A stretch of DNA of 42,354 nt from a virus. The position numbers and the translations under genes were made by a program. Under the pieces are notes generated by a model, which saw nothing but the letters and a program-made list of their open reading frames with translations, was not told where the DNA came from and ran no database searches. This document shows positions 1,281 to 24,600 of the stretch, one piece after another. The stretch spans positions 1-42,354 of the IMG/VR virus record IMGVR_UViG_3300031599_000011; one strand, written 5' to 3'. Each line of letters starts with the position of its first letter. Position 1 is the stretch's first letter.

Positions 1281-1577
1281 ATGCCTCAGACTATTGAGGA
1301 ATGGAAGCACCTTGTAGATCTAGGTGAGAAAGCTATGTTCAGAGACAAGGAGACTATCTCCATGTTAAAGATGAAGGTTAATAACTTAGAGCAGAAGCTC
1401 AAAGCTAAGAAGCCATTAGTAGCTACACCTACATCTGCAAAGATATCAACTAAAGAGTGCCCACAGTGTGGCGCCACTAATCTACTCACATTTACCAGTA
1501 TGAATATGAAGACATGTTCCACATGCCGTATTGATATACCTTGGTATTTAGAAGAAGGTCAGAAGCCTTTATTTTAG
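1281..1577 (+). CDS. Zinc-ribbon phage protein, 98 aa
   Basis: The start at 1281 follows GGGTGAG; a longer in-frame reading from 1152 would overlap the previous gene almost entirely. Residues 1-45 form a charged helix likely to make a coiled coil (MPQTIEEWKHLVDLGEKAM onward). The C-terminal half carries two CxxC pairs (CPQC and CSTC), the signature of a zinc ribbon, and ends in GQKPLF. Zinc ribbons of this type bind nucleic acid or proteins. The combination of N-terminal coiled coil and C-terminal ribbon resembles a conserved phage family of unknown function. It lies between a small Cys/His protein and a nucleotide kinase. Confidence 0.75.
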   Translation: MPQTIEEWKHLVDLGEKAMFRDKETISMLKMKVNNLEQKLKAKKPLVATPTSAKISTKECPQCGATNLLTFTSMNMKTCSTCRIDIPWYLEEGQKPLF

Positions 1578-1585
1578 GAGTTATT

Positions 1586-2119
1586 ATGGAAGGTGTTAAG
1601 TTATTCGGTATAGCAGGACTAGCGCAATCAGGTAAAGACACCGTTGCAGAGATCCTAGCTGAATACTATGAGGCAGATATCATTGCATTTGCTGATCCAA
1701 TAAAGCTAATGCTTGAGATTGGCCTTGGTATTACCTACGATGAGTTATACAAAGGTGATAGGTCAGGAGTGCATCCTAAGTACGATGTGTCAGTACGTCA
1801 TATGATGCAGACCCTAGGCACTGACTGGGGACGTAAGTACATCGGTGAGGATGTATGGTTGAAGGCCATAGAGATGCATATACTGGCTAATGGCAATGAT
1901 TTTCAGGTAGTTAGTGATGTACGCTTCGAGAATGAAGCAGCTTGGGTACGCGAACATGGTGTACTGATTCATGTACATGGTAGAGGTGGTATTCCTGGCA
2001 ATCATGCTAGTGAAAGTGGTGTGCTAGTAAATAAATTAGATATTGTCATAGACAATTCTGGAAGTATGGCTAAACTACGTGGCCAGATTGAACACATAGT
2101 AGAATCTGTAGTTAATTAG
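1586..2119 (+). CDS. Deoxynucleoside monophosphate kinase
   Basis: The protein probably phosphorylates dNMPs to dNDPs to supply phage DNA synthesis, as phage T4 gp1 does. The P-loop is at residues 11-19 (GLAQSGKDT). The motifs QTLGTDWGR and SDVRFENEA are typical of the phage dNMP kinase family and contribute the nucleobase and phosphate sites. Length (177 residues) is shorter than T4 gp1 but usual for compact phage members. The start at 1586 is preceded by TAGGAG and is immediately followed by the conserved first strand and P-loop; a start at 1541 would lie in the previous gene. It acts in the cytoplasm on salvaged host nucleotides. Confidence 0.85.
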   Translation: MEGVKLFGIAGLAQSGKDTVAEILAEYYEADIIAFADPIKLMLEIGLGITYDELYKGDRSGVHPKYDVSVRHMMQTLGTDWGRKYIGEDVWLKAIEMHILANGNDFQVVSDVRFENEAAWVREHGVLIHVHGRGGIPGNHASESGVLVNKLDIVIDNSGSMAKLRGQIEHIVESVVN

Positions 2120-2131
2120 AGGAATAGTAGT

Positions 2132-2290
2132 ATGGATTTAAAGGCTAAGATACTTCGCCAAAAGAAGTTAGATTACGTGAAAGGTGAGATAGCTAACTAT
2201 GAAATGGCAGTTAAACACGGGAAGGATTGGGCTAACCAGTTCAACCTCAAAAAACTAGCAGAGCTTAACGCTAAACTGCTATCACTCTAG
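2132..2290 (+). CDS. Small helical protein, 52 aa
   Basis: This short gene begins MDLKAKILRQKK and ends LAELNAKLLSL. It follows the kinase by twelve bases with AGAGGAA upstream, and it ends just before a strong terminator, so it is the last gene of this transcript. The sequence is lysine-rich and predicted to be almost wholly helical, with leucines spaced for a coiled coil. No function can be assigned. Support comes from the ribosome binding site, gene spacing and exact fit between the kinase stop and the terminator. Confidence 0.65.
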   Translation: MDLKAKILRQKKLDYVKGEIANYEMAVKHGKDWANQFNLKKLAELNAKLLSL

Positions 2291-2310
2291 GCCATTGAGC
2301 CAATCACAAG

Positions 2311-2334
2311 AGACACCTAAGGGTGTCTTTTTTT
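2311..2334 (+). terminator. Rho-independent terminator
   Basis: A seven-base-pair stem (AGACACC at 2311-2317 with GGTGTCT at 2322-2328) encloses the loop TAAG and is followed by a T run to 2334. It closes the transcript that starts before the window and separates it from the hairpin promoter a few bases downstream. Confidence 0.85.
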
Positions 2335-2336
2335 AT

Positions 2337-2355
2337 ACGCGCTCCGCACGTTTTG
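2337..2355 (+). promoter_or_regulatory. Putative N4-type vRNAP hairpin promoter
   Basis: The inverted repeat is 2337-2342 with 2346-2351, one mismatch in six pairs, around the triloop TCC (GGA on the template strand), followed by TTTTG. Coliphage N4 vRNAP recognises a template-strand hairpin with a purine at the loop centre, numbered -11. Counting from the loop centre at 2344 puts +1 on G2355, which fits initiation with G. The leader then runs 28 bases to the MoxR gene start at 2384, with an AGGAA ribosome binding site. The presence of a vRNAP gene in this genome supports the call. Confidence 0.65.
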
Positions 2356-2383
2356 TTGAATTAACTAATTATTAGGAACAATT

Positions 2384-3400
2384 ATGGAATTATCTACAAA
2401 AGACATCCCTCAAGCGGTTGTCGGAACTCTATTCGCAGGTCTGGTACCATTTATTAAGGGTAGCCCAGGCATTGGTAAGTCTGACATTGTACGTCAGGTT
2501 GCTGAAGAACTTAATTTAAAGGTTATAGACTTTCGTCTAAGCCAAGCTGATCCAACTGATCTACAGGGGTTCCCTGGTGTTACAGCAGAAGGTCGCTCTA
2601 CATTTCACCCAGGTGAGATGTTTCCTATTGAAGGTGACCCTATTCCAGATGGATTTAGTGGATGGTTACTCTTCTTAGATGAGATGAACAGTGCGCCAGT
2701 ATCTGTACAAGCTGCCTCATACAAGCTATGCCTTGATAAGCAGGTAGGCCAGCATAAACTACATAGCCATGTTGCTATTGTGGCTGCAGGTAACCTGACT
2801 ACAGACAAGGCCATCACGACTCGTATGAGTACGGCTATGCAATCACGTCTTATTCATTTAACTATGGCAGTAGACCCTAATGCGTGGCTTAAGTGGGCTA
2901 CTACAGCTGGTATTGATCATCGCATCACCAGCTTCATTGAATATCGTAAGGAACTCTTACATAAGTTTGATCCATCACATGCAGGAGATACGTTTCCTTG
3001 CCCTCGTACATGGGAGTTCTTATCTAAGCAGATTGATGGTAAGGCTAAGTTGAACCATATTGATATGGTATGTGCTGCAGGTACTGTAGGTGAAGGCCCA
3101 GCATTGGAGTTTAAAGGTTTCAGTGAGATCTTTGATAGCCTTCCTAAAATTAAAGATATTATTAATAAGCCTAAGACAGTGCGTATTCCTAATGAGCCAA
3201 GTGTTCACTATGCTCTAGCTGGTTTGATCTCGTATGAGGTTACCCCAGAGAACATTGACTCATTGGCAACATTTGTGGAGCGTTTACCAGCAGACTTCCA
3301 AGTAGTTACATGGAAATCATCTGTACGACGTAATCCTGAAATCATTAACGCACCTTACATTGATCAGTGGATCACTAAGAACGCTCAGGAGATGCTATGA
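2384..3400 (+). CDS. MoxR-type AAA+ ATPase (N4 gp24-like)
   Basis: Walker A is at residues 26-33 (GSPGIGKS) and Walker B at 95-100 (LLFLDE), followed by MNSAP. A sensor-1 asparagine appears in VAAGN, with an arginine-finger region after it (SRLIHL). This arrangement belongs to the MoxR/RavA group of AAA+ proteins, which work as ring-shaped chaperones together with VWA-domain partners. A VWA gene follows two genes downstream. N4 and relatives carry the same ATPase-VWA pair (gp24 and gp25 by memory) without a firmly established job. The start at 2384 follows AGGAACAATT. Its end overlaps the next start by four bases (ATGA), so translation is coupled. Confidence 0.88.
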   Translation: MELSTKDIPQAVVGTLFAGLVPFIKGSPGIGKSDIVRQVAEELNLKVIDFRLSQADPTDLQGFPGVTAEGRSTFHPGEMFPIEGDPIPDGFSGWLLFLDEMNSAPVSVQAASYKLCLDKQVGQHKLHSHVAIVAAGNLTTDKAITTRMSTAMQSRLIHLTMAVDPNAWLKWATTAGIDHRITSFIEYRKELLHKFDPSHAGDTFPCPRTWEFLSKQIDGKAKLNHIDMVCAAGTVGEGPALEFKGFSEIFDSLPKIKDIINKPKTVRIPNEPSVHYALAGLISYEVTPENIDSLATFVERLPADFQVVTWKSSVRRNPEIINAPYIDQWITKNAQEML

Positions 3401-4284
3401 GATGTTTAACAGCTTTAGACCATGCCAAGACCACCGATGTATTCAGTGAGCTTATTAGTTGTAGGAAAGATGTAGGAGTTAATAAAGGCCTAGCCAACCT
3501 GTCAGGACAGTACACTCCTAGATTCGATCCAGAAACCTTGGATAGGTACTTCGTTCAGCAATCACATGGTGGTATAGGATCCAAGGTATATGAGGATGGC
3601 TCTTTTGATCTTTTATTCCATGTGCCGCGTAATATTAGATACCTTGAGCCTCTAGGTATTGTGGTATCACCTATACGTTACTGCATTGATTTAATGACTG
3701 AAATAAAAGGACATCGGGAAGGAAAGCCTTACGTTAAGGTGCCTAAGAACAATCTTGATAAAGACTTCATGATGATCATGGATATGTCTGATCCAGAAGC
3801 AGAATACAAAGGGTTTGGTTTAATAAGGAAGCGAAATCCTGACAGCATTAAGTTCATACCTAATGAAGATGGTACCTATTCGCCTCAGAATTTGGTGACT
3901 GATAACGTCTACATGCCTCCTAATAAAGAGGTGCGTAAGGCTCATAAGACTAAAATTGATGATCTCATCAAGAAGGTAACACTTATGAGCTACATTAAGA
4001 GTGACGGTAAGTTAGTCTTAACAGACCCAGACGAGTTCGGAGATCTGTATCGGATGTCCGATAGAGGTGATAATGCTGCCATTAAGTATGCTGCTATCTT
4101 GGAGTTCGTTGAGAGTAGTTATGATGCTCAGATGTGTATGAAGCAGGTAATTGAATCCCCAGATAATTACAGATTATCCTATCTAACACGACATTGCGTT
4201 AAAAACATGCTGAAATATTACTCAGACTTCCGTAATGAAGTTGGAGTGGATCACTTTACATGTAAATTCAATTACAGAACATAA
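3397..4284 (+). CDS. Hypothetical protein between MoxR ATPase and VWA protein
   Basis: I do not recognise a domain in these 295 residues. It overlaps the ATPase gene by four bases and is followed by the VWA gene after twelve, so it is part of the same operon and probably of the same complex or pathway. The sequence is soluble, mixed alpha and beta, with no signal peptide or membrane segment. Residues 1-110 carry the more hydrophobic strands (FDLLFHVPRNIRYLEPLG), and the C-terminal third looks helical. It could be an adaptor or substrate of the ATPase-VWA pair; that is inferred from position alone. Confidence 0.8.
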   Translation: MRCLTALDHAKTTDVFSELISCRKDVGVNKGLANLSGQYTPRFDPETLDRYFVQQSHGGIGSKVYEDGSFDLLFHVPRNIRYLEPLGIVVSPIRYCIDLMTEIKGHREGKPYVKVPKNNLDKDFMMIMDMSDPEAEYKGFGLIRKRNPDSIKFIPNEDGTYSPQNLVTDNVYMPPNKEVRKAHKTKIDDLIKKVTLMSYIKSDGKLVLTDPDEFGDLYRMSDRGDNAAIKYAAILEFVESSYDAQMCMKQVIESPDNYRLSYLTRHCVKNMLKYYSDFRNEVGVDHFTCKFNYRT

Positions 4285-4296
4285 ACGGAGATTATT

Positions 4297-5460
4297 ATGG
4301 AAGAGAAATACCCACAAGTTGATATTACACCAGCACTCCAAAAGGAGCTGGATAAGTCCAAGATTGGTTTAATGATGCAAGGGGGTACCTTCCTGATATC
4401 TGTCGGTCTTATGATGAAGCATGTGTTTACCAATGCTATTGATACTGCAGCCACTGATGGCAAACGTATTATGTTTAACCCATCGTTCTTTAGCTCACTA
4501 AGTAAGCAGGAACGTATTGGTGTATTGGCACACGAGATTATGCACGTAGCCCTAATGCATATGATTCGTCTAGGTACTCGTGACCATAGTGTGTATAACC
4601 AAGCTGGTGACTTTGTCATCAACGATATACTACGCAATAGTGGATACGTACTGCCTGAGCCACACCTATATGATGCTAAGTATCATGGTTGGAGTACTGA
4701 AGAGGTCTATGATGACTTGATCAAAGACCAGGATGCACAGGATCAGCCTAATACTTTAGGTGGTGATGTGGACTTCTCTGGTGATCAGGACGAAGACACT
4801 CAGAATGACATTGCTAGTAGTGTCCAAGATACTGTTATCAAGGCTAGAGCTCAAGCTAAGATGGAAGGTGGTGAGGAAGCTGGAAAGATTCCTGGTGAAG
4901 TTGATCGTATGATTGACGAACTCATCAACCCGGTCTTAGATTGGACTCAGTTGTTAGCTAGATTCATGGATTCTACTGCTAAAGATGACTACACATGGGC
5001 ACGTCCTAACAGACGATATATGCCCAATCACTACATGCCTACGATGTACTCAGAGAGTATTGATCACATCACAGTGGCAGTAGACACATCAGGTTCTGTT
5101 AGTGAGGCTATGCTTGCAGAGATTCTTACTGAGGTGAAGAGTATCTATGATACCTACCAACCAGATAAGATGACAATCCTAGACTGTGACTACAAGATCC
5201 ATAACATACATGAAGTGGATGATAGTACTGAGATCATGAAGCTTAAGTTCTCTGGTAATGGAGGTACGTCCTTTATACCACCACTAGAGTACTGCAAAGA
5301 GCATGATACTAACGTACTGCTCTACTTTACCGACTTATATGCTGAGACTATCAGACCGGAGGACGGATATGAGTTTGAAACAATGTGGATCTGTTACTCC
5401 AAACACGATCCGCAACCTTATGGGGAGACAATATACTATGAGTCAGATCACGCATGGTGA
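4297..5460 (+). CDS. VWA-like protein with HExxH metallopeptidase motif (N4 gp25-like)
   Basis: The N-terminal region contains H79-E80-x2-H83 in LAHEIMHVALMH, the layout of the DUF2201 putative metallopeptidase family. The C-terminal region holds a von Willebrand A fold with an intact metal ion-dependent adhesion site: D263-T-S265-G-S267, T324 in GGTSF and D346 in YFTDLY. A charged acidic linker (about 140-200) separates the halves. VWA proteins of this type partner MoxR ATPases such as the one two genes upstream. Possible roles are proteolysis or remodelling of a host or virion complex; none is proven. The start at 4297 follows ACGGAGATTATT. Confidence 0.85.
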   Translation: MEEKYPQVDITPALQKELDKSKIGLMMQGGTFLISVGLMMKHVFTNAIDTAATDGKRIMFNPSFFSSLSKQERIGVLAHEIMHVALMHMIRLGTRDHSVYNQAGDFVINDILRNSGYVLPEPHLYDAKYHGWSTEEVYDDLIKDQDAQDQPNTLGGDVDFSGDQDEDTQNDIASSVQDTVIKARAQAKMEGGEEAGKIPGEVDRMIDELINPVLDWTQLLARFMDSTAKDDYTWARPNRRYMPNHYMPTMYSESIDHITVAVDTSGSVSEAMLAEILTEVKSIYDTYQPDKMTILDCDYKIHNIHEVDDSTEIMKLKFSGNGGTSFIPPLEYCKEHDTNVLLYFTDLYAETIRPEDGYEFETMWICYSKHDPQPYGETIYYESDHAW

Positions 5461-6241: not shown

Positions 6242-7654
6242 ATGTTTTCATTAATCGTAGGAGTGATATTTGCACTTATCGCTATTGTGGTTTTGATCTA
6301 TAAGATGGCACCACATGACCCAGAGAATGAGCGACAAGTACGGGGTGCTAAGATGGCATCGAAAGCTAAGAATGCTTTAGCTACTTTAGTACTTGTCATC
6401 GCATCCCTGTCAACTATATTTGGATCCATCTCATACAACGATGCTGGTTATTGTACTCATGCACAGACTGCATTCGGTACTGAAGAAGCTTCGTGTTCTA
6501 CAGGATGGTTCTATACCGGTTGGGGACGTACAACTGCATGGCCTCACTATGTGACCATTGCTAACACCAATGACGAATCAATGAGTGGTTCATCAGTACG
6601 TGCACCTTACCCGGTACGCTTGTCTGATAACTGGAATGGTGATGTAACGCAATCTACTCGATTTGCTATCCCACAGGATACTCAGTCGTTTATGGTTATG
6701 CACCGTACATTCCGATCACCTGAGCGTTTAATCACAACTACACTTAAGCCTGCAGTATCTTCATCATTGGATTCGGTTTCTAACCTATTCTCTATGGAAG
6801 ATTACTATGCTGGCGGTAAGCGTGATGAGTATAAGACTGAATACCGTGATGCTGTAACTAAGGGTCGTCCTAAAGTTAAGCAGGTAGTTGTGTCTAATGT
6901 ACGTGGTGCTACAGCGTCTAAGATGAGTTCATCTGATTCAGATGTTGCTAAAGACACTAGTGATCTGGGTAACTTAGCCTCCCTACGTACAGAGATGCAG
7001 AAGGTTACTGTCGATGGTCTAGTAGTTCGTGAAGCTCATGGTTATGTTCAATATGGTATCACTGTAGCGTCAGCTATCCTTGAGAACCTTGATCCAGATG
7101 ATCTATTTGAACAGCAGATGCAGTCTCGTAAAGATGCAGCTTCTCGTCGTATCGTAGCTCAAGAATCTCGTAAAGAGCAGGAAGAGCAACGGTTGTTAGC
7201 GATCCAAACAGGTCAGACTAATATTGCCAAGCGTCAGGCTTCCGCACAGGTTGAGCAGATTGCTCAGACTACCGAAGCTGAGACTACCAAGAAGCTTGCT
7301 CTAATCGCTGCAGAGCGTATGTTAGAAGAAGCAGACATTGCTAGGCAGACAGCTCTAATCAAGCTTGAGCGAGCTAAGATTGACGCACAGGCTGTTACAG
7401 TCTCTGCTGATGCAACTGCTTATGAAAAGCGTGTGGTATTAGAGGCTGATGGTGCTTTGCAACAGAAGCTTGATGCTCACGTAAAGGTTCAGAAGTTCTG
7501 GGCTAATGCAGCTGCACAAATCAATGTACCTACGCAGGTATTTGGTGGTGGTGGCAATACAGGTAACGCTCTAGGCACGGTTGACCAGTTCATGCAGATC
7601 ATGACTATGCAATCAGCTAAAGCGTTACAGGTTGATACAGCTATTACTAAGTAA
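6242..7654 (+). CDS. Membrane-anchored SPFH/band-7-like protein
   Basis: Two N-terminal hydrophobic segments, about residues 2-21 and 44-63, anchor the protein in the host inner membrane. Residues about 65-285 look like an SPFH (band 7, prohibitin) domain, with WPHYVTIANT and the later VDGLVVREAHGYVQYGITVA. Residues about 285-410 form a long alanine-, glutamate- and arginine-rich coiled coil, as in HflK/HflC and prohibitins. The C-terminus is glycine-rich (FGGGGNTGN). Cellular SPFH proteins form large membrane rings that control proteases or membrane domains. In a phage the role is unknown; superinfection exclusion, membrane stabilisation or FtsH control are possible. A vRNAP-type promoter precedes it and a terminator follows. 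Confidence 0.75.
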   Translation: MFSLIVGVIFALIAIVVLIYKMAPHDPENERQVRGAKMASKAKNALATLVLVIASLSTIFGSISYNDAGYCTHAQTAFGTEEASCSTGWFYTGWGRTTAWPHYVTIANTNDESMSGSSVRAPYPVRLSDNWNGDVTQSTRFAIPQDTQSFMVMHRTFRSPERLITTTLKPAVSSSLDSVSNLFSMEDYYAGGKRDEYKTEYRDAVTKGRPKVKQVVVSNVRGATASKMSSSDSDVAKDTSDLGNLASLRTEMQKVTVDGLVVREAHGYVQYGITVASAILENLDPDDLFEQQMQSRKDAASRRIVAQESRKEQEEQRLLAIQTGQTNIAKRQASAQVEQIAQTTEAETTKKLALIAAERMLEEADIARQTALIKLERAKIDAQAVTVSADATAYEKRVVLEADGALQQKLDAHVKVQKFWANAAAQINVPTQVFGGGGNTGNALGTVDQFMQIMTMQSAKALQVDTAITK

Positions 7655-7707: not shown

Positions 7708-7911
7708 ATGGGTAAACGATTTCAAAACAATGAGGGGGTTGTCATGATGATGAACCTCAAAGGTATGCACCAAGTACATTCAAATAATGTAAATGGTGTG
7801 CATATCTTTAAGACCACTGATAAACAACGTGCACTAACTCACTTCCAAACTATGGTAGATGAAATGGAGATGTTAGATGATAGCGGAATTAATGATTTGC
7901 CTAGCCCTTAA
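7708..7911 (+). CDS. Hypothetical protein, 67 aa
   Basis: The start follows TTAAGGAGTATTT, a strong ribosome binding site. The product is a short soluble protein rich in methionine (GVVMMMNLKGMH) with no recognisable domain. Its last 35 bases overlap the start of the SleB-type hydrolase gene, which suggests that the two are translated together. Function unknown. Confidence 0.6.
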   Translation: MGKRFQNNEGVVMMMNLKGMHQVHSNNVNGVHIFKTTDKQRALTHFQTMVDEMEMLDDSGINDLPSP

Positions 7912-8293
7912 TGGTTACCATGAGGCTAGAGGAGAGCTTACAGCAGGAGAATTGGCTGTAAATCATGTAGTTATGAACAGAGTTGCTGATTCTAGGTACA
8001 AAGATGATGCCTGCAGTGTTGTAAAAGCAGGAAGATACTGGAATAATGTTCCAGTTCGTAATAGGTGCCACTTCAGTTGGTGGTGCGATGGTAGGTCTGA
8101 TAGTCCTAGAGACATGACAGCCTGGAGCCAATCGAATAAATTAGCTAGTGGTATTGTGTCAGGTATTTACCCTGATATTACCGATGGCTCTACCCACTAC
8201 CATGCTATAGGGATTAGCCCTAACTGGATCTACGATCGAGGTATGGTACGTGTTGGTGTTATAGGTGATCACATCTTTTACAGATGGGAATAG
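7877..8293 (+). CDS. SleB-type cell wall hydrolase (Hydrolase_2 family)
   Basis: The sequence matches the SleB/CwlJ catalytic domain along its whole 138 residues. It has the putative catalytic E16 in YHEARGE, AVNHVVMNRV, HFSWWCDG at about 65-72, STHYHA at 105-110 and a final HIFYRW. SleB enzymes are lytic transglycosylases that cut the glycan strand of peptidoglycan. There is no signal peptide or wall-binding domain, so it would act as an endolysin after holin action, or as a virion-associated or periplasmic activity by another route. The start follows TGGAGATGTTAG. It overlaps the previous gene by 35 bases. It is far from the late lysis cassette at 40076-41099. Confidence 0.85.
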   Translation: MIAELMICLALNGYHEARGELTAGELAVNHVVMNRVADSRYKDDACSVVKAGRYWNNVPVRNRCHFSWWCDGRSDSPRDMTAWSQSNKLASGIVSGIYPDITDGSTHYHAIGISPNWIYDRGMVRVGVIGDHIFYRWE

Positions 8294-8896: not shown

Positions 8897-10393
8897 ATGA
8901 AACACTTTTACACTGATCCGGACAAGTTCCCGGATGCTGCCCTGTTGATCAAAGAATCTGCCTATAAATACGATGGTGTAATGAAGCACTATGCAGAGCC
9001 CCTACAAGCATGTTTAAAAGTAATGCCATTAGAGTTCAACTCTGCTGGTAAGGCGCCTGCTAAGATGATTAAGGAAGTACTACCTGCACTTTTAGCTGAT
9101 CTGGATGCAGAGGGCATTATTACTGTAATAATAGCCGACTCTACATACTTCAAAGCAGCAACTAAACAATCTAAGTCTGAGCCACACTACAGCTATAAAA
9201 TGCCCTGTATGGTTAAAGGATTTGAGCACATGAATGTATTCCTTACTGCTAACTATCAAGGGCTATTCTATAACCCAGCTCTACAAGAGAAGATAGATAT
9301 AAGTCTTGAAGCTATATCAGCTGACCTAGGTGGTAACTACCAGATAATTGGTCAAGGTATAATTCACTCATCTACTTATGTGGATGATCTAGCTGATATT
9401 AAATTCCAGCTGGAATCTTTACACCAGTATCCCTCACTCACTTGTGACGTAGAGACCTTTGGCCTATCTATTGGTGAGTCTCGTATTGGTACTATTGCAT
9501 TTGCATGGAATCAGCATGAAGGCGTTACTATAAACGTATCTCATATGATTACACGTACAGATGAGGATAAGTGGAAACTAGTTGATCTACTTTACGCTTT
9601 CTTCACCCAGTACAAAGGTAACCTTAAGTACCACAATGCCTCATTTGATATTCGTTGTATTATATACGACGTGTTTATGAGGGAGGTGAGTACTGACTTC
9701 GTTGCTATGGTAGATGCACTGGACGTTATGTTCAGGGACATAGATGACACTAAGATCATCACATACCTAGCTACTAATAACACAGCTGAGAATAAACTAT
9801 CACTTAAACATAATGCGTTTGAGTATGCAGGCAACTATGCTCAGGAAGATATCCATGATATTAACTTGATCCAAAATGTAGATCTTATGAACTACAACTT
9901 GGTTGATTGCCTTAGTACTTGGTATGTATTCAATAAGTATTACGACAAGATGTGTGAGGACGATCAGTTAGAGATCTACCGTAACATATTCATACCATCC
10001 CTTAAGAACATCACTCAGATGGAACTTACAGGTATGCCTATGGATATGCCTTCCATTGAAGTAGTGGAGGAAGATCTCAAAAAGATTATGTCTACTAGTA
10101 CTAGGAACCTTCACAGAACAGAGTTAGTTAAAGACTACCTGTGGCTTGAGCAGAAGAAGGCATTCATTCTTAAGAATACCCTTCTAAAGAAGAAGTTTAA
10201 GCCTCTGGACGAGTTTGTTCAGTCATTGAATACCAATAGTCCTCTTCAGCTTAGCAGTCTCTTATATGGCTTCCTAGGGCTTCCAGTGTTAGATACTACA
10301 GACACAGGGCAACCAGCTACTGGGAAGAAAACCATTAAGAAGCTGTATAAGTTGTTACTTAATCAATATGACATTGATGAGGAGGAGTTGTGA
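8897..10393 (+). CDS. Split family A DNA polymerase, N-terminal half (3'-5' exonuclease)
   Basis: This is the proofreading half of an N4 gp39-like family A DNA polymerase. Exonuclease motifs are present: Exo I D184-x-E186 in CDVETFG, Exo II D251 in NASFD, and Exo III Y333-x3-D337 in YNLVD. Residues about 415-498 begin the polymerase module with TNSPLQLSSLLYGFLGLPV, matching the SPKQL segment of Pol I before the thumb. The protein then stops at LNQYDIDEEEL. The remaining domains are encoded at 11143-12258. The two halves total 869 residues, close to the length I recall for intact N4 gp39. The last codons (GAGGAGG) also form the ribosome binding site of the next gene. Confidence 0.88.
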   Translation: MKHFYTDPDKFPDAALLIKESAYKYDGVMKHYAEPLQACLKVMPLEFNSAGKAPAKMIKEVLPALLADLDAEGIITVIIADSTYFKAATKQSKSEPHYSYKMPCMVKGFEHMNVFLTANYQGLFYNPALQEKIDISLEAISADLGGNYQIIGQGIIHSSTYVDDLADIKFQLESLHQYPSLTCDVETFGLSIGESRIGTIAFAWNQHEGVTINVSHMITRTDEDKWKLVDLLYAFFTQYKGNLKYHNASFDIRCIIYDVFMREVSTDFVAMVDALDVMFRDIDDTKIITYLATNNTAENKLSLKHNAFEYAGNYAQEDIHDINLIQNVDLMNYNLVDCLSTWYVFNKYYDKMCEDDQLEIYRNIFIPSLKNITQMELTGMPMDMPSIEVVEEDLKKIMSTSTRNLHRTELVKDYLWLEQKKAFILKNTLLKKKFKPLDEFVQSLNTNSPLQLSSLLYGFLGLPVLDTTDTGQPATGKKTIKKLYKLLLNQYDIDEEEL

Positions 10394-10803
10394 GCACTGC
10401 TAAAGAATTACTATTCGACCGAATCGTTGATGTGGTTAAACGTACTCCGATACTCCGTGACCATATTAAGGTGATCCATATAAATCTATGTGTTAGGTAT
10501 TCTAGGATACCAACCATTATGTATGGTGAACTTAGGATCAAGTTAACTGATGGGCACGATAGGCCCAAGTTTGAGAAGGCTATGGGCATTGTATTAAGTA
10601 AGATGGATATCATCAGTATTGATAGATGGCGCCGAGCACACAGTACTAAGTACACCGTAGATCTACCATTAAAGGTAGAGATAAAAAACTACCCTGATAT
10701 TCAACTAAGGCAACTACTCACTGGGAAACCACCAGTGTTAATACATTCATGGCGTAACCCAAAGTTCCCTAAAAGGAGTATATTATGGATAAATTCAAGT
10801 TAA
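10390..10803 (+). CDS. Hypothetical protein A inserted between DNA polymerase halves, 137 aa
   Basis: The GTG start at 10390 overlaps the polymerase stop (GTGA) and is preceded by GAGGAGGAG, so it is coupled to the exonuclease half. It has no homing endonuclease motif that I can see (no LAGLIDADG, GIY-YIG or HNH). It shares a faint pattern with the next gene: a GELRIKL strand near the middle and PLKVEIKNYPDIQLRQLL near the end, compared with VLRTSISLEDFPEIALSNYI. The two may be diverged copies of one fold. The protein is basic. Function unknown; a polymerase accessory or linker subunit is possible from position. Confidence 0.75.
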   Translation: MSTAKELLFDRIVDVVKRTPILRDHIKVIHINLCVRYSRIPTIMYGELRIKLTDGHDRPKFEKAMGIVLSKMDIISIDRWRRAHSTKYTVDLPLKVEIKNYPDIQLRQLLTGKPPVLIHSWRNPKFPKRSILWINSS

Positions 10804-11159
10804 GCGACCTAGGGGAGCAGTTTAGGTTAGGTCTATCGAAGCTCTCTACTGGGGCGCAGAGTATCAGTTGGTCACTTGATAACTATAATCTTAAGAGCAA
10901 CACAATTACTGGTGATATTAATTTAGTACTTGATGAGTCAGAGTCTGCTCCATTTAACAGGATGCATACAGTGCTACTTCTGGATCAGCTTAAAGTAGAG
11001 ATGAAGGGTATGACGTATACCCCAGGTCATTTAGTAGACCATCTCACATCTAACATTGTACTACGTACTAGCATTTCATTAGAAGACTTCCCAGAGATAG
11101 CTCTATCTAACTACATCAAAGATGCACAGGAAACTTTGAACTATGAGTGGAATATCTAA
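10785..11159 (+). CDS. Hypothetical protein B inserted between DNA polymerase halves, 124 aa
   Basis: Starts at 10785 after AAAAGGAG, overlapping gene A by 19 bases, and its end overlaps the start of the second polymerase half by 17 bases. It is likely mostly beta structure in the middle (SNTITGDINLVLDES) with helices after it. It is acidic, whereas gene A is basic. It lacks endonuclease motifs. Tight overlaps on both sides indicate that all four products are made from one message in similar amounts. Function unknown. Confidence 0.75.
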   Translation: MDKFKLSDLGEQFRLGLSKLSTGAQSISWSLDNYNLKSNTITGDINLVLDESESAPFNRMHTVLLLDQLKVEMKGMTYTPGHLVDHLTSNIVLRTSISLEDFPEIALSNYIKDAQETLNYEWNI

Positions 11160-12258
11160 GATTAAGAATAGGGATGATGCTATCAAGGTAGCAAGAGTCC
11201 TTAAGTATCTGATGGAGATAAATGAGGTTAGTAAGTTACTAACTGCATTCGTCCCTGCTTTCTTATTCAAGACCATACCCAAGATGGGTAAATGGTTCCT
11301 TCATGGTAACTTTCATTTGGGTGGTACCAAATCAGGACGCCTGAGCTCCTCTAAGATCAACCTACAACAGCTTCCATCTACTGGGAGTAAGTTTGCTAAG
11401 GCAATTAAAGGATGCTTTCAGGCTCCTCCTGGGTGGGTCATAGTGGGTGCTGACTTCTCTAGTCTTGAAGACAAGATTTCAGCTCTTACAACTAAAGATC
11501 CAAACAAGATTAAAGTATATGCAGATGGCTATGACGGTCACTGTTTAAGAGCATTCGCATACTTTGGTAAGCAGATGCCTGATATCGTGGACACAGTTGC
11601 CTCGATCAATAGTATTGAAACGATGTATGAGGCACTTAGGCAACGATCCAAAGGCCCTACGTTTGCTCTTACCTATCAGGGAACTGAGCATACCTTAGTC
11701 AACACACTAGGTTTCTCTAAAGAGGAAGCACGTGAGATTGTTGATAACTATCACGAGCTGTACAAGGTATCCGATGAATGGGTACAAGTTAAGCTCATAG
11801 AGGCTACTAAGAATGGCTATGTAACAGGTGCATTCGGTCTACGCCTAAGAACACCTGTTCTAGCTCAAACGATCTTAAACACACGTCATACGCCCTTTGA
11901 AGCACAGGCTGAAGGACGTACTGCCGGCAACGCATTAGGTCAGTCATACGGACTACTTAATAACCGTGCAGCTAATGAATTTATGGGCAAGGTTCATACC
12001 TCTGCTTATAGATATAGTATTTTACCTATTGCACATATACATGATGCACAGTATTACATGGTAAAAACTGATCCAGATCTAATAGCTTGGTTAAACACAA
12101 ACCTAGTAGATAGCATGTCTTGGCAGGAGTTACCGGAACTTAAGCATGACATTGTTAAGCTAGGTGCAAACTTAGAAATCTATTATCCAAGTATGGGTAG
12201 TAAAATTACAATACCTAATAATGCTACAGCTCAGGAAATCATAGATGCAGCACTATAA
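11143..12258 (+). CDS. Split family A DNA polymerase, C-terminal half (thumb, palm, fingers)
   Basis: This half holds the polymerase active site. TKSGRLSSSKINLQQLPS (63-80) matches the TGRLSS...NLQ segment of Pol I. Motif A is VGADFSSLE with D104. Motif B is R166-x3-K170-x3-F174-x3-Y178-x-G180. Motif C is H300-D301 in IAHIHDAQYY. F174 takes the place of the nucleotide-selecting F762 of E. coli Pol I. Motif C reads HDA, whereas Pol I and T7 have HDE. The protein starts at the thumb (EVSKLLTAFVPAFL), preceded by AGGAAACTTTGAACT as ribosome binding site. It must pair with the product of 8897-10393 to make a proofreading replicase. Confidence 0.9.
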   Translation: MSGISKIKNRDDAIKVARVLKYLMEINEVSKLLTAFVPAFLFKTIPKMGKWFLHGNFHLGGTKSGRLSSSKINLQQLPSTGSKFAKAIKGCFQAPPGWVIVGADFSSLEDKISALTTKDPNKIKVYADGYDGHCLRAFAYFGKQMPDIVDTVASINSIETMYEALRQRSKGPTFALTYQGTEHTLVNTLGFSKEEAREIVDNYHELYKVSDEWVQVKLIEATKNGYVTGAFGLRLRTPVLAQTILNTRHTPFEAQAEGRTAGNALGQSYGLLNNRAANEFMGKVHTSAYRYSILPIAHIHDAQYYMVKTDPDLIAWLNTNLVDSMSWQELPELKHDIVKLGANLEIYYPSMGSKITIPNNATAQEIIDAAL

Positions 12259-16074: not shown

Positions 16075-16086
16075 TAGGTGGAATCT

Positions 16087-16809
16087 ATGCAAATGAACGA
16101 CAACCTTGTACTCATCTCAGGAAAGAGTGCTACAGGTAAATCAGCTAGTCTGATGAGCATTAAAGATCCTGAAGGAGTTATCTATCTTAATTGTGAGAAC
16201 AACAAGAAACTCCCATTCCGTAGTAAGTTTAAAGAATTTGGCATCACTGACCCATTACAGGTCTATGAAGCATTCGTTGAAGCTGAAGCTATGGATGATG
16301 TACATACAATCATTGTAGATAGTTTGACCTACATGATGGATATGTACGAATCGTACTATGTGCTTACCTCATCTAACACTATGAAGGCATGGGGCGATTA
16401 TGCTCAATTCTTCAAGAAGTTAATGAGCAAGTATGTAGCCGAATCAACTAAGAACGTTATCTTTATTGCCCATACCACTGACATCATGAATGATGCAGAG
16501 ATGGCTCTAGAGACCTTAGTTAAGGTAAAGGGTTCACTTATGAACCAAGGCATTGAGTCCTACTTCTCTACTGTTGTTAGTACGAAGAAGGTTAACTTGA
16601 AGCACCTTAAGCCATACGAAAGCGAACTCTTGGACATCACTGAAGATGAAGAAGAGCTAGGTTTTAAGTATGTGTTCCAAACACGTATCACTAAAGATAC
16701 TGTTAATGAGCGTATGCGAGCTCCACTAAGTATGTGGACTAAGAACGAATCATTCACAGACAACGATGTACAGTTGGTTATTAACCGACTACACGAATAT
16801 TATATTTAA
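16087..16809 (+). CDS. RecA/Sak4-like ATPase (N4 gp44-like)
   Basis: Walker A is G12-x4-G17-K18-S19 in SGKSATGKS, Walker B ends at D78 in TIIVDSLTYM, and a sensor-like strand reads VIFIAHTTD. The arrangement is that of phage Sak4-type, RecA-fold single-strand annealing ATPases, which act with an SSB; the SSB gene follows at once. In N4-like phages an ATPase of this kind sits in the same place. The ATG at 16087 is preferred over the GTG at 16078 because AGGTGG ends five bases before it. It is likely to help recombination-dependent replication or repair. Confidence 0.82.
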   Translation: MQMNDNLVLISGKSATGKSASLMSIKDPEGVIYLNCENNKKLPFRSKFKEFGITDPLQVYEAFVEAEAMDDVHTIIVDSLTYMMDMYESYYVLTSSNTMKAWGDYAQFFKKLMSKYVAESTKNVIFIAHTTDIMNDAEMALETLVKVKGSLMNQGIESYFSTVVSTKKVNLKHLKPYESELLDITEDEEELGFKYVFQTRITKDTVNERMRAPLSMWTKNESFTDNDVQLVINRLHEYYI

Positions 16810-16825
16810 TAAAGGTATTACTACT

Positions 16826-17584
16826 ATGAGTTTTTTAAAGAATTTACAATCATCTGCAGCAATTAAGGTAGAGAAAGACGTTATCGGTGGCGGAAGCTAC
16901 TTACTTGAGTCTGGCGTATACGACATGACTATTGATACTGCATACTTTGATACGTCAAAGGGTGGAGCTATCAGCTTGAACCTAGTGCTTAAAGGCGCTG
17001 GTGGTGAGAACTTACGTCAAACCATCTACATGACTTCTGGCACTGCCAAAGGCTGTAAGAACACTTACATTGATAAGCGCGATGGTTCTACTAAGTACCT
17101 GCCAGGTTTCAACACTGCTAACGCTATCTGCTTGCTATCTAATGGCGAAGAGATGTCTGAGCAGGAAATTGATACTAAGACTTTGAAGTTGTATGACTTC
17201 ACAGCTCGTAAAGAGACTCCTCAGCAGAAAGACGTGATCATGAGCCTATTGGGTCAAGACATCACTGTTGGTGTTCTTAAGATCATCGAAAACAAGAATG
17301 AGCAGAATGCTCAAGGCAGCTACGTACCTAAGTCTAACGGTGCTACTCGTACTTCCAACGAAATCGACAAGGTATTCCGTACCTCTGACCAGTTAACGGT
17401 TAGCGAGATCAATGATGGAGCTACAGATGCTGCGTTCTATGCTAAGTGGTCTGACAAGAACACTGGCAATACTCGTGATAAGTCTGCTGCTAAAGCTGGT
17501 GAAGTTGCTGACACACAAGGTGCCTCACCAATGGCAACTGCTGAAGCTTCATCTGAGCCAAAGAAGAGCTTGTTCGGTAAGTAA
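16826..17584 (+). CDS. Single-stranded DNA-binding protein (N4 gp45-like)
   Basis: Position, length (252 residues; N4 SSB has about 265) and the final EPKKSLFGK agree with N4 SSB. In N4 this protein covers single-stranded DNA, is needed for vRNAP function at early promoters, and activates the host sigma70 RNA polymerase at late promoters through residues near its C-terminus including lysines (from memory). The N-terminal 200 residues contain many beta strands expected of an OB-like fold (GGSYLLESGVYDMTI; GAISLNLVLKG). The start at 16826 follows AAAGG; a reading from 16766 would overlap the ATPase gene. It likely links replication to the switch to late transcription in this phage. Confidence 0.82.
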   Translation: MSFLKNLQSSAAIKVEKDVIGGGSYLLESGVYDMTIDTAYFDTSKGGAISLNLVLKGAGGENLRQTIYMTSGTAKGCKNTYIDKRDGSTKYLPGFNTANAICLLSNGEEMSEQEIDTKTLKLYDFTARKETPQQKDVIMSLLGQDITVGVLKIIENKNEQNAQGSYVPKSNGATRTSNEIDKVFRTSDQLTVSEINDGATDAAFYAKWSDKNTGNTRDKSAAKAGEVADTQGASPMATAEASSEPKKSLFGK

Positions 17585-18457: not shown

Positions 18458-18607
18458 ATGAGAAGGCTCAAGATATTTGGGTTAGCTCTCTTGTTATTTA
18501 TTGCAATACTGTTCCTGCCCATAGTCTTAGGACTAGGGCTGGTAGCAGTTGTAGGTATGATCTCATGGATCATATCTACAGCAGTTAATGAAGAGTCTGA
18601 TGACTAG
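18458..18607 (+). CDS. Small two-pass membrane protein, 49 aa
   Basis: Starts MRRLKIFGLALLLFIAI and has two hydrophobic segments (about 6-22 and 24-40) separated by a proline, with a positively charged N-terminus and acidic C-terminus (NEESDD). The start at 18458 has only a modest ribosome binding site, but a TTG at 18446 overlapping the previous stop is another choice. It ends inside the last four bases of the vRNAP gene on the opposite strand, so the two transcription units meet tail to tail. Holin-like by size and shape, but no family match is evident. Confidence 0.55.
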   Translation: MRRLKIFGLALLLFIAILFLPIVLGLGLVAVVGMISWIISTAVNEESDD

Positions 18608-21600
18608 TCAATCACACCCAGTAGTGAGGCAGTGTCCATTGCTGCCTTAGTACCACTCTGTGTAGTTGCAGATATTATGTTAGTCACTGGACTAGCATAG
18701 TTATCAAAAGGAGTGGCATCAAATGGTGATGCTAGACCTGCAGCAAGTACATCATTAAGTACTAAGAAGCCTATAGCGTTCAACGGTTTGCCATGGAGCA
18801 AAGCAGAGATAGCACGTAGTATTCTGAAACCGTACTTAGTAAACATCTGTAAGCCATAGTCGTTGGCAAACTGGATGTACTTGTTAGTAGGTGTTTCGTA
18901 GTTAACGAAACCATCCATAACATGTTCCAATGCAGCACTTTCTTCCACACTCTCATGCACAGTCATGTATTGGTAGATTGCATACCTACCAGCAAAGTCA
19001 CTAAACTGCGTGGTCTTCATTAAGGCCTTAAATACTGCAGTGTCATCACTCATGTAAGCATAACGATAAGCTTGACGTGCACCTGCGACAGACCCACCTA
19101 CCTTACCTCCCTTACCTTGAATACCATCAAAGAACTCACTTATCTTAGAAGCATACGAATAAGGATTGTTCAGTACATCAATGTCTTCCACGATAGTTTG
19201 GAATACACCTGCTTTAATAAGAGGCAATATTGGTGATGTATTTATACTACTCTCAACCGTAGATATATCAGCCAATATTTTCTTAGTACTTTTACCAGTC
19301 TTCTTAGCAGTCATTAACTGAAGGTTAAGATCTCTAAGCTGCTTACCATCTTCCACATAGTTATTAAGCTTAATGGCACCTTCTGCCTGCATCTTAACCA
19401 TATACTCAGGTGGTACTCCAGAAAGAATACCTAACATAGTGTTAGACAATACGTTCATAGATAAAGTTGCAGGCCACTTTATTACAATGTTCTTCTTGGC
19501 TGCAGCAATCATCTGTGTCCATGCATTAGTGGCTACTTGCATCTTGTCGCCTCCAGGTAACTGTACCTTTTTGCGACCAAATACTATGTCTATAAACTCA
19601 GCCTGGATCATAACTTTATCAGAACCGGTGTGTGACTTTATGAACCTCTTGGTGCTGTCTGGAAGTATCATATAAAGTTCTCTAAGCTCTTCAGTCTTAG
19701 CGTTTAAAGACACCTCTACGAAGTCTCTGTTACCTTTCATACCTTTTTCACGATACTGTAGGTGCAGCTCTTCAATTACCTTGTTATTAATACGAGGAGT
19801 CTCTTCTTTATCTACGATACCACCATACATATGGCTCAATACAGCTGTCATACCAGCTTTCTGTTCAAATACACGGGCTCTCTTAGACTTCTCCATTGTA
19901 TAGCGGAAGTCCATTACCTTACCAAGCTGATCAGTTACAGGGATCATGATGTTAGGCTTACTGCTCACATAATCAGGATTACCTAGTAGCTTCAATGCTT
20001 CAAGCTTATTCTGTGCACGTACATTTCTTACCAATCTCTTAGCTTTTGCAAAGGCAGCCTTATCCCCACTCTCACTAGCTCTCTTGGTTATACTCTGTCC
20101 TGACATGTTGGTGTTAGTAACAGACATGATGAACTTTTGTCTAATACCATGCCCACCTGACTTATTAACGTACATTCTCATGGTAGCAGGAGAGTCTGTA
20201 TCGGCAGGATCAGTAGGTATAATACCTGGATCCATAACATAACCTTGCTTCTTATACTCGGCCTCCATCTCTACAGTATCCACTCTGATACTAATATCCG
20301 GATTGTAGATATCTTTAGAGTAGCCTGCAGACTGCTGAATATTATTACCATCAAAGTTACGAGCCAAAGACTGCTTATTGAACTCATCAATCTGAGTCAA
20401 TGTGTTGATTGCAGCATTCCTTTCTGAATTATTCGCATGCTCTCGTAGCATAACATTAGCCACAGCCTGTCTAGCATCTTGGGTGTTATATTCAAGGGCT
20501 GTAAGGGTAGCTAATTCATTTATGAGGGCTTCAGCATCTTTCATTACCTCAGGCATTCTAATACCAGGAACACCTTTTAGGTCGTCAGCACGGGCTATCA
20601 GAGCAGCGTTCATCAAGGAACCATCTACTGTGGCCTTTTGTGTTGCCATGATTGATCCAAGGCTGTTAGCCATACCGATGTAGTAATCACCTAATCTGCC
20701 ATATGCATTAAGCTTTTTACGTACATCAACAATAGCCTTAGCTCTGGTAGCATCGTCTGAGATGATACTAGCAAGTGCAGGAATATTAACTTTAGTCCAA
20801 TCTTTAATAAGAGAAGAAATATTAGTCTCTATCAACACTCTTGTGTGTGACTCATCTTCAAACGTAGACAGTGCACCAGCTCCTTCAATATATCCACGTG
20901 ATATGTTAATGGCAATAGCACTTATAGCATCATCGCGTTGTGACTCTAAATTCTTCTTTGCATCCATTAACATCTTTTCAAGGATACGTTGATGAGGTGT
21001 CACATTACCTGTGATCTCACGATACAGCTCAGTTATAAAGTTACGTTTGGATGCCTGCATAGACTTACGAACTATGTCCATCTTGGTTCGACTTTCTATA
21101 CGAGATACTGGGTTGATATATCCTACAAATAGTAATGCGTATGCCTTACCTAACTTACGCTCCAATATCGCATGATCTCTAGCAGAAAGAGTCTTCTCTG
21201 CTAATGGCTTAAGCATCTTCTCAGTTATAGCATCAACTACCTTTTTGTTAGCTGCAGTCATCGCAACAACTGCTTTCTGAGTACGGAATCTAAACTTATC
21301 ATTTACATGAGTAAGCTCTTCTACCATCTGCTCAATAAGTTCAGCATTGTTACCAGCTGGGGTTGCCTTCTGAGCTTTCTCTATAAGACCTTTAGCCCAG
21401 GCCATAACATTCTCTAAGATAGCTAATAGTTTCTGGAAGATAGTATCCTGAGAACCAACTTCTTGATACTTAGATACTTTCATGCCCACTAGAGCGCTGT
21501 TTAGGTGCTCGTTGGTCAATGCGTATGCTAGGAACTCATGCAATCCTGCACGAATCTTGGTGGTACCTTTCTTACCTGAGTCAGTATCTATGTATTGAGT

Positions 21601-24600
21601 CTCTATCATCTGAGCATTGTTAAAAACATAGTCATAAGCTGCTTTAGCAGCCTTGATCTCTTCCTTAACATTGACTGAATACACAGGGTTACCTTTAGCA
21701 TCGCGTTGTAGAAACACTCTCCAAGGCTTACCGTTGTACTTCTCTTCTAGATGAGTAACAGTATCTCTCATAGTGGCACTAAGCTTACGTACGATAGCGT
21801 TAGCCTTTGGGTCACTTAAAGCAGCACGAGTAATGACGTGTACAAGTTCATGTACATAGGACTCTTGTGCAGACGGTGTAACAAGGTTTAAGGCTAATCC
21901 CTTACCAATGTTCAAGAAGACCTTACCGTCTCTCTGACGGCCATATGAGGTCTCACCTTTAGACTGCATGTGTAGCTCGTACTTGTCAGTAGTCTTAATT
22001 ACTTTAGATACGATACGATTAAGTACATCACGAAGCTTTGCTACATGCTCAGGAGAGTTAGTACGATTATCTTTAATACCATCAAATATCTTCTCTACAT
22101 TGCCGGCAATCAAATCACCTGCTTTAGTGTAGCTGAACTCATCATCATTAACAGGGGTAATTGATCCAAGGCTATCTTCGCCGGGTTTCATTTTGAAGGC
22201 TGTACCGGGCATGCCCATGTGATCCACTACACGTAAGCGTTCAAAGAACTCCTTACGGTTAGAAGCTACTTCATCATTCTGTTCCGTCATGCCAGCTATT
22301 GTGTCAGTTATACTGTCACGCAAGAACTCCATTGAATCAGACTCTCTGATATTAACACCGGACATCTCAGGTAAGAATGTACTTACAGAGAAGTTCTTAG
22401 AATTAAAGCCCTCAGTATCTTCAGACATGAAGTTTATGAAGCCATCTAGGTTAGATCTATCACTACCTTGTGTGTGAGCCATAACTTCCATGAAGTTATT
22501 GTATGTGTTCTCGAATATAGAGAAGCCTTCACTAGTTGAGGCAACGTTTTGGTTGTACGTACGTGAGGCGCCAACAGATTGACCAATACTCGTGTACACA
22601 GCGTCAAACGCAGACATAGCGTTGTACTTGCTCATGACAGCACGAACTATAGTATCATCAATACTTTGAACAGTTACTACTATGGATCTGGCTGCTTCAT
22701 TAGCTGTGCGCTTCTCCACTGAGCGTGTGTATGCAGACTTACGTCCATCCTCATTGTTGGTAAGACCACTAATTTTAACAACATTATCAGTGGACGTATG
22801 ATCACGTACTGTTTCATTGGCTAGTGCTGCAAGTCCCTCTTCCTTTAACACAGAGTCAGGTGTGGGCAGATAAGGGCGTAGGGCTGTTAAGGCAGGATCT
22901 TCATAGATCTTAGTTAACTTAGCAGGAGTAAGACTGGCGTAGCCACCAGCAGCATCTATTGCCTTCTTAACTTGCCATCTGTAGTACCAAGACATCATGT
23001 TGACCATCTTGTTAACAGATTGTGCCGTGTCACGCATAGTTAGTATGTTGTCGAGTGTGTCTGTAAGAGTCTCACCATATACTTTGCTTAAGACCTCCTC
23101 GTACTTAGTAACTAAGGGGTATGGCAATAGGCTCTCATTAAGCTTCAGACCCATTAATGAATCTAAACGGGTCTTAAATAATGTAGGATTACTTTTCTGT
23201 ATTCCAGGGGTCTTCAAATCCAGTAAGTTAGTGAATATTTTAACTTTACCTGCGTTATCTGCAGCATGAATACGCTCATATAGCTTACCCAGTTGCCCAT
23301 CGGAAGTGCCATTTATAAAGTTATTAACAAGACTCTTATATTGAGCCATGTAGCTACCCTGCATGATGATTGGTTTAGCAGTGTTACGATCCATTTCTAC
23401 TAATTCTAGTATAGGAGAAAGTCTTTTATGCTTACCGACCAACTTATCTACAGCTAATTTCCATGGATCAATAAGCATGGTGTACACGTCTTTAGTGTTA
23501 CCAGTCTTCTCCCTGAATTTAGGAATACTTTCGTGGAACTCACCTGTCTCTTTATCAGCTAAGAAAATACCACCAGTAGAGAGCATACTAATATTCTTAT
23601 CACCTAGCGCACCGAAGTTCATTAGGGTAAGCATAAATCCACTCGTAATAGCGTCAGTCTCGATAGCTAGGTCGGTAGTGAACGTCTTAGAGTTATCTCG
23701 ACTATCTGCAGTATCTTTAGATTGATCCAGGATTGGACTGGTATTTAGGTAGCTTCCTAATGCCTGTAAGCCGTCCAAACCATGGGCGCCTAGGCCATTA
23801 TCTTGTAGATACTCAGTCACAGAGGATCCATAGCCATCGGCAAACACAGCTGCTGCATTCTCTCGTGTGTCCATATCATTAGCTATGCGATAGAACTCAG
23901 TAACAATCTCGTCATGTTTACCATGATCAATTTTTACTGACTTACTTAATGCCTGAACTACTGCATATTGGAACATCTGGAAGTGGTCACCACCTTGTCC
24001 AGCTGTAACCTCTACACTAAAGCCATCTTTAGATCCTGTAGCATACTTATCAGCGAATATTAGATGGCGAACTAGCTTACTGCCTTGGTAACTGAAGGCA
24101 CTCTCATTGACGTTGTGACGACCATTCTCACCTGTGTTGTATGAAAAGTGAAAGGGCCCATTACTTCCTTCTGCAACATACATGTCATAGAAGTCGAACA
24201 CACCTTGAATTTCATTAACAATACCCAGATTGCGACCTACATCACCCATCTGAAGGTATAGAGGACGATCTTCAATAGCATACTCAAATCCCTGAAGTTG
24301 CTTAAAGAACTCAGTAGCTTCTTCTCTATTCTCAGGTTGAAGAAGGTATAGCATGTCTGGTTTAAATCTCCAATCGACCTTATTCATCCTATTTACGTCA
24401 CTAATTACCTTCTTAGGTAATGGACGTGATGTCTTATTATAAGTAGCACCTGCCTTAAGCTTCTTAATATCATTGCCAAATCTAGGGAACTTAGCTCTAG
24501 GCTCAGTACCTGATATCTTCTGAATCAGAGTAGTGTATGCACTAGCGTTTTTAGCACTAGTAAGGTCAAGAACTGATTGTACTAGGGGAGTTGGTTGACC

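Follow-up and report, generated by a model that had tools for sequence, protein, structure and literature searches.

A DNA polymerase locus of four overlapping genes

IMG/VR record IMGVR_UViG_3300031599_000011 is an uncultured, metagenomic viral record of 42,354 bases, referred to here in its full length as the window. Four open reading frames, at 8897-10393, 10390-10803, 10785-11159, and 11143-12258, follow one another with overlaps of 4, 19, and 17 nt; these genes and the features described within them all lie on the plus strand. The first, of 498 aa, encodes the exonuclease half of a DNA polymerase, which spans the N-terminal region, the 3'-5' exonuclease domain, and the beginning of the thumb; the last, of 371 aa, encodes the polymerase half, with the remaining thumb, palm, and fingers. 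Two small genes occupy the slot between them. Gene A (137 aa) begins at a GTG that overlaps the stop codon of the exonuclease half and has no family match. Gene B (124 aa) is conserved in relatives, always in this slot.

Gene A is preceded by the ribosome site AGGAGG, 4 nt ahead of its GTG start, and gene B by AAGGAG, 6 nt ahead of its ATG start. A first-pass annotation of this DNA had given every gene its own ribosome binding site, which holds for A and B but not comfortably for the polymerase half, where merely AGGA is present, 11 nt upstream. Translation of this half probably depends on coupling through its 17-nt overlap with gene B.

The surrounding genes identify the phage. A PHROG profile search of the window matched an N4-like primase (phrog_2135), exonuclease (phrog_2139), single-stranded DNA binding protein (phrog_743), major head protein (phrog_1357), and portal (phrog_1216). 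With both N4-like replication and head genes, the phage is N4-like (Schitoviridae). The open reading frame listing also contains a 3,157-aa frame at 18604-28077, a candidate for the giant virion RNA polymerase expected of an N4-like phage. Directly upstream of the replication genes, in the window and likewise in relatives, is a cell wall hydrolase gene (7877-8293; Pfam Hydrolase_2, E = 4.4e-19). Other genes include one whose 470-aa product matches Band 7/SPFH weakly and the uncharacterized family phrog_11908 strongly (6242-7654), one for a 387-aa protein matching phrog_1314, which is labeled HNH endonuclease (4297-5460), and a Sak4-like annealing protein gene that overlaps a single-strand DNA binding protein gene (16078-17584).

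The two halves correspond to one N4 gp39-type polymerase

The DNA polymerase family phrog_17 matches the exonuclease half over profile positions 535 to 922 (E = 2.9e-56) and the polymerase half over positions 931 to 1246 (E = 6.9e-74). Because these stretches are consecutive, the halves represent contiguous parts of one polymerase, and the four-frame split described at first pass is confirmed. The polymerase half also matches Pfam DNA_pol_A (E = 1.7e-31). The exonuclease half is 37% identical to residues 1 to 492 of the N4 DNA polymerase and the polymerase half 57% identical to residues 486 to 853; together they comprise 869 aa, against 859 aa for the N4 enzyme, in line with the earlier estimate that they add up to about the length of intact gp39.

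All catalytic motifs are present in the halves, also as first annotated. Exonuclease motifs I (D184-V-E186; 9446-9454), II (D251; 9647-9649), and III (Y333xxxD337; 9893-9907) are invariant in the split relatives. Alignment with relatives places the catalytic D104 of polymerase motif A at 11452-11454 and motif B (R166...K170...F174...Y178) at 11638-11676. Motif C (H300-D301; 12040-12045) reads HDA rather than HDE, as it does in N4 and the other N4-like enzymes aligned. Homology extends across the full length of both halves, as seen with phrog_17 and in a tblastn comparison of the joined halves with phage records. By this homology and the full set of exonuclease and polymerase motifs, the window polymerase is assigned to family A, N4 gp39 type. 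Between the window and a relative, L010, dN/dS is 0.078 for the exonuclease half and 0.044 for the polymerase half, indicating purifying selection on both.

The break lies at the thumb tip

Aligned to the Klenow fragment, the junction falls opposite the stretch LALDYPLP, at approximately residues 617 to 624 of Pol I (we supplied the +323 numbering), which we take from the fold to be the thumb tip, between the thumb helices. In N4 DNA polymerase numbering the break is at approximately residues 486 to 492. Because the exonuclease half already contains the opening part of the thumb, around Klenow N579, the earlier reading that this half ends exactly where the thumb begins has to be revised: the cut is inside the thumb, at its tip.

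The exonuclease half carries a C-terminal tail of about 15 residues past the N4 match (10346-10393), a feature common to all of the split polymerases. Overall, every split copy has approximately 16 to 22 extra residues at the junction, and nearly all intact polymerases are without them. The tail has the consensus ...LxxLIxEHNLTEEEL, and the head of the polymerase half has the consensus M...TRxEAIxxAKxLKxLI. In several loci, the window among them, the EEEL codons of the tail also provide the following gene with its Shine-Dalgarno sequence; conservation of the tail may therefore be partly at the DNA level.

Recurrence of the break among diverged relatives

The first-pass annotation suggested looking for the same split in relatives. 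We scanned IMG/VR with short conserved peptides and kept the best 80 matches per scan (loci numbered with L), giving counts that are not frequency estimates. At least 11 distinct metagenomic sequences have the break at this position. Of 106 polymerases in a non-redundant set, 13 are split here, 92 are intact, and 1 (L177) is interrupted elsewhere by an HNH gene. Over the region compared, the window is matched without a difference by two more IMG/VR contigs (L007/L029 and L008/L030). Two further groups, L009/L010 (polymerase half 88% identical to that of the window) and L017 to L020 (83 to 84% identical), have the same break with gene B alone between the halves; here the exonuclease-half stop overlaps the start of B, and the end of B overlaps the start of the polymerase half. 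None of these six records contains gene A. The identical stretch in two other contigs and the shared break in diverged relatives indicate that the split is due neither to chance nor to assembly error.

The split loci differ in what the slot contains: A plus B, B alone, one of two unrelated genes (C or D), or no gene. Gene C (approximately 150 aa) is found in L048, L056/L054, and L049, and gene D (187 to 206 aa) in L051/L050, L125, and L128. The slot is empty in L055 and L137/L138; in L055 and L137 the two halves overlap by 8 nt, and in L055 the end of the exonuclease half and the start of the polymerase half read GGAGGAGGAACTTAATGGATAG. The two genes inside the polymerase, described at first pass and by implication intrinsic to the split, are thus present in the window, but the A plus B arrangement is specific to this phage: A occurs only in this lineage and B only in close relatives (among the matches listed), and other split loci have one unrelated gene or none.

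All of the split sequences are metagenomic. Among the phage records listed, no isolate has the split; the reference phages examined have an uninterrupted polymerase at this position, as do all 12 relatives found in assemblies of bacterial genomes.

Genes A to D of the slot

Gene A has no match in PHROG, Pfam, NCBIfam, or PADLOC, and none of A, B, C, and D has a convincing match in these libraries. Gene B has no sequence match in the PDB, and fold searches with low-confidence models of A and B gave no convincing hit. We also considered B as a relocated N4 gp38, gp40, or gp41 and rejected this, as there is no similarity.

Gene B is retained in the slot in all three sublineages of the window group, and its dN/dS between the window and L010 (0.116, with pS of 0.74) indicates purifying selection. 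Alignment of B homologues reveals a conserved C-terminal stretch from T95 to W122, ending ...ISLEDFPEIALSNYIKDAQETLNYEW (11067-11150). Among the matches listed, homologues of B and of C were seen only in the slot.

AlphaFold models of A and B, built independently and of low confidence, share their order of elements. The A model (pLDDT 61) has helices at 5-18, 58-71, and 102-108 and strands at 26-36, 43-52, 78-84, 87-94, and 116-122; the B model (pLDDT 69) has helices at 6-20 and 59-68, strands at 24-35, 40-50, 71-83, and 86-98, then short helices and a strand at 120-123. Local alignment of A with the B family scores better than 99.8% of self-shuffles (P = 0.002), and a profile comparison gives P = 0.11, which is weak alone. 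Gene A is probably a diverged tandem copy of B. The same shuffle test gives P values of 0.6 to 0.9 for C and D with the B family, and homology of B to C or D was rejected on this basis.

Phylogeny of split and intact polymerases

The split sequences lie in one region of the trees and do not form one clean clade. A single split clade is rejected by the AU test on the joined halves with junction columns removed (P = 6.4e-5) and marginally on each half alone (P = 0.037 and 0.043). The intact polymerase of L136 falls within the split sequences in the trees of the joined halves and of the exonuclease half and stands beside the C and D lineages in the polymerase tree; the intact L161/L179 lie close to the window group, but only in the tree of the joined halves. 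Since a strict single clade is rejected, the fission does not appear to be a simple one-off event. Two histories would fit: an old fission with later rejoining in part of the lineages, or repeated breakage at the thumb tip. The shared junction extensions favor, without settling, the former. The L136 gene (positions 1331-3931 of that locus), with a slightly longer thumb-tip linker, is a candidate rejoined gene.

A predicted two-chain enzyme and its alternatives

We consider it likely that an ancient fission produced two separately translated halves that form a noncovalent two-chain enzyme, with the junction serving as a slot for small genes. The exonuclease and polymerase halves would be translated apart from one run of overlapping, probably coupled genes. 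They would then associate noncovalently, helices of both chains completing the thumb, to give one polymerase with proofreading. The conserved tail and head could form or stabilize the joint, and the junction would be a site of gain, duplication, and loss of small genes, as with B, its probable copy A, the unrelated C and D, and the empty slots. Such an enzyme is feasible, since the split 43A and 43B proteins of the T4-like Aeromonas phage 25 copurify and have polymerase activity (PMC2988022). We infer from sequence that the halves assemble, are active, and are translationally coupled, and that the enzyme does not require A or B.

How far the slot genes take part is a separate matter. Thioredoxin binds a thumb insertion of T7 DNA polymerase, and by analogy B (with A, C, and D in their own lineages) might be a stoichiometric subunit at the broken thumb tip that acts as a processivity or regulatory factor. 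The retention of B in all three sublineages of the window group, its purifying selection and highly conserved C-terminal stretch, the restriction of B and C homologues to the slot among the matches listed, the overlap of slot genes with the halves, and the plausibility of the thumb tip as a docking site all fit such a role. Yet L055 and L137 have no slot gene, B, C, and D have no detectable homology to one another, intact N4-like polymerases do without these proteins, and neither A nor B convincingly matches a known fold, leaving this an unlikely explanation. Conservation and placement argue for slot genes acting with the polymerase, whereas relatives with an empty slot and the absence of common ancestry argue against a required role. 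A broader proposal, that slot genes are interchangeable, lineage-specific subunits on the broken thumb tip that set the processivity of the split polymerase and represent a recurrent natural route to family A regulatory subunits, we regard as doubtful. A purely passive slot, for its part, would not predict that most lineages have slot genes and that B is conserved.

The split could instead be the mark of a homing endonuclease gene that invaded and split the polymerase gene, after which it disappeared or gave way to the small genes now in the slot. Other N4-like polymerases are indeed interrupted by HNH genes, at N4 residue 610 in VEc25, Pollock, and Pylas and near the position preceding motif A in L177, and splits of this kind are known in T4-like phages (PMC2988022). 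At the present break, though, no HNH gene was found in any locus examined, A, B, C, and D lack matches to HNH, GIY-YIG, or other nucleases, and the no-insert forms bear no scar beyond the short extensions. The locus is therefore not classed among homing-endonuclease splits, as no endonuclease was found at the break, and we think an origin of this sort improbable.

Phage DNA polymerase genes are common hosts of introns, and the interval from 10394 to 11142 might be a self-splicing intron whose removal restores an intact polymerase. The authors who described the split of MEP401-type phages raised an intron for their case and left it open (PMC10580990), and the window interval folds somewhat better than its shuffles (z = -2.4). 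Splicing fails to explain the no-insert forms, since L055 and L137 have nothing between the halves to remove. Moreover, the 360 to 380 nt between the halves in L010 and L020 are wholly taken up by gene B, with synonymous sites near or at saturation; folding z scores reach just -1.7 to -2.4; and neither the window nor the interval matches a group I or II intron or any other RNA family of Rfam, a weak test in that the HNH-split controls are also blank. An intron is accordingly very improbable, and a removed intervening intron or intein does not appear to account for the split. Programmed frameshifting at the overlaps to give a fused polymerase is just as remote: in L055 and L137 the halves could be fused by a +1 shift within their 8-nt overlap, but a single shift fails for the insert forms, given that the exonuclease frame of L010 and L020 meets 12 to 14 stops ahead of the polymerase half and that in the window the changes of frame would demand several shifts and yield a chain with approximately 250 foreign residues.

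The natural two-chain split proposed in the first-pass annotation is supported, and is strengthened by L055 and L137, where the halves abut directly. Its statement that the junction has no intein, intron, or homing endonuclease signature also stands, since none was matched and L055 and L137 have no interval. Its placement of the cut at the very start of the thumb, its ribosome site for every gene, and its implied treatment of A and B as intrinsic are not supported.

Implications of the split

Split replicative polymerases are known and rare. Here, a diverse group has a family A enzyme with an apparently old break at its thumb tip, and the break persists with different small genes or none. The natural series of no insert, B, A plus B, C, D, and a nested intact relative could be used to test tolerance of a cut thumb, the passage of a junction gene to a subunit, and the rejoining of split genes. 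The break likewise supplies a natural site at which to divide engineered two-part polymerases. Split phages may be missed or truncated in surveys that take full-length N4 DNA polymerase as their hallmark; among the open-licence papers covered, one survey of uncultured N4-like viruses uses this hallmark and leaves the split unmentioned in its main text (PMC10654107).

Comparison with known systems

In most MEP401-type phages (Zobellviridae), a family A polymerase is encoded by two genes around a small uncharacterized gene (PMC10580990). The small gene is 77 aa, the polymerase belongs to a different lineage, and the break is just before motif A, at approximately N4 residue 562 versus approximately 486 to 492 in the window. 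With its different break point, the window split is, on alignment, not of the MEP401 type, and the no-insert relatives of the window argue against an intron in this group.

The N4-like polymerase genes of VEc25, Pollock, Pylas, and L177 are likewise interrupted by another gene. In these cases the inserted gene encodes an HNH endonuclease and sits at N4 residue 610 or ahead of motif A, and the phages are scattered close relatives of intact ones. In L177 (2533-5951), the interrupting gene near the position preceding motif A is a 221-aa frame with HNH-endonuclease-like sequence. A separate variation is found in Vibrio phage vB_VpaP-MS02 (L041:2546-5290), whose N4-like polymerase has an in-frame insertion of approximately 65 residues just before motif A; the polymerases of the related Vibrio phages PhiImVa-1 and BUCT194 align in two pieces, like that of vB_VpaP-MS02.

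The T4-like 43A/43B pair offers an analogy to the proposed two-chain enzyme, being a replicative phage polymerase in two chains. Unlike the window polymerase, it is a family B enzyme and is associated with a seg homing endonuclease or an untranslated spacer. The intact gp39-type polymerase of Schitoviridae shares whole-length homology and the same motifs with the window enzyme. In both N4 and the window, the polymerase is followed by a gp42-like exonuclease and a gp43-like primase. N4 and nearly all of its relatives make this polymerase as one chain, whereas the window enzyme is cut at the thumb tip and carries a short extra tail and head.
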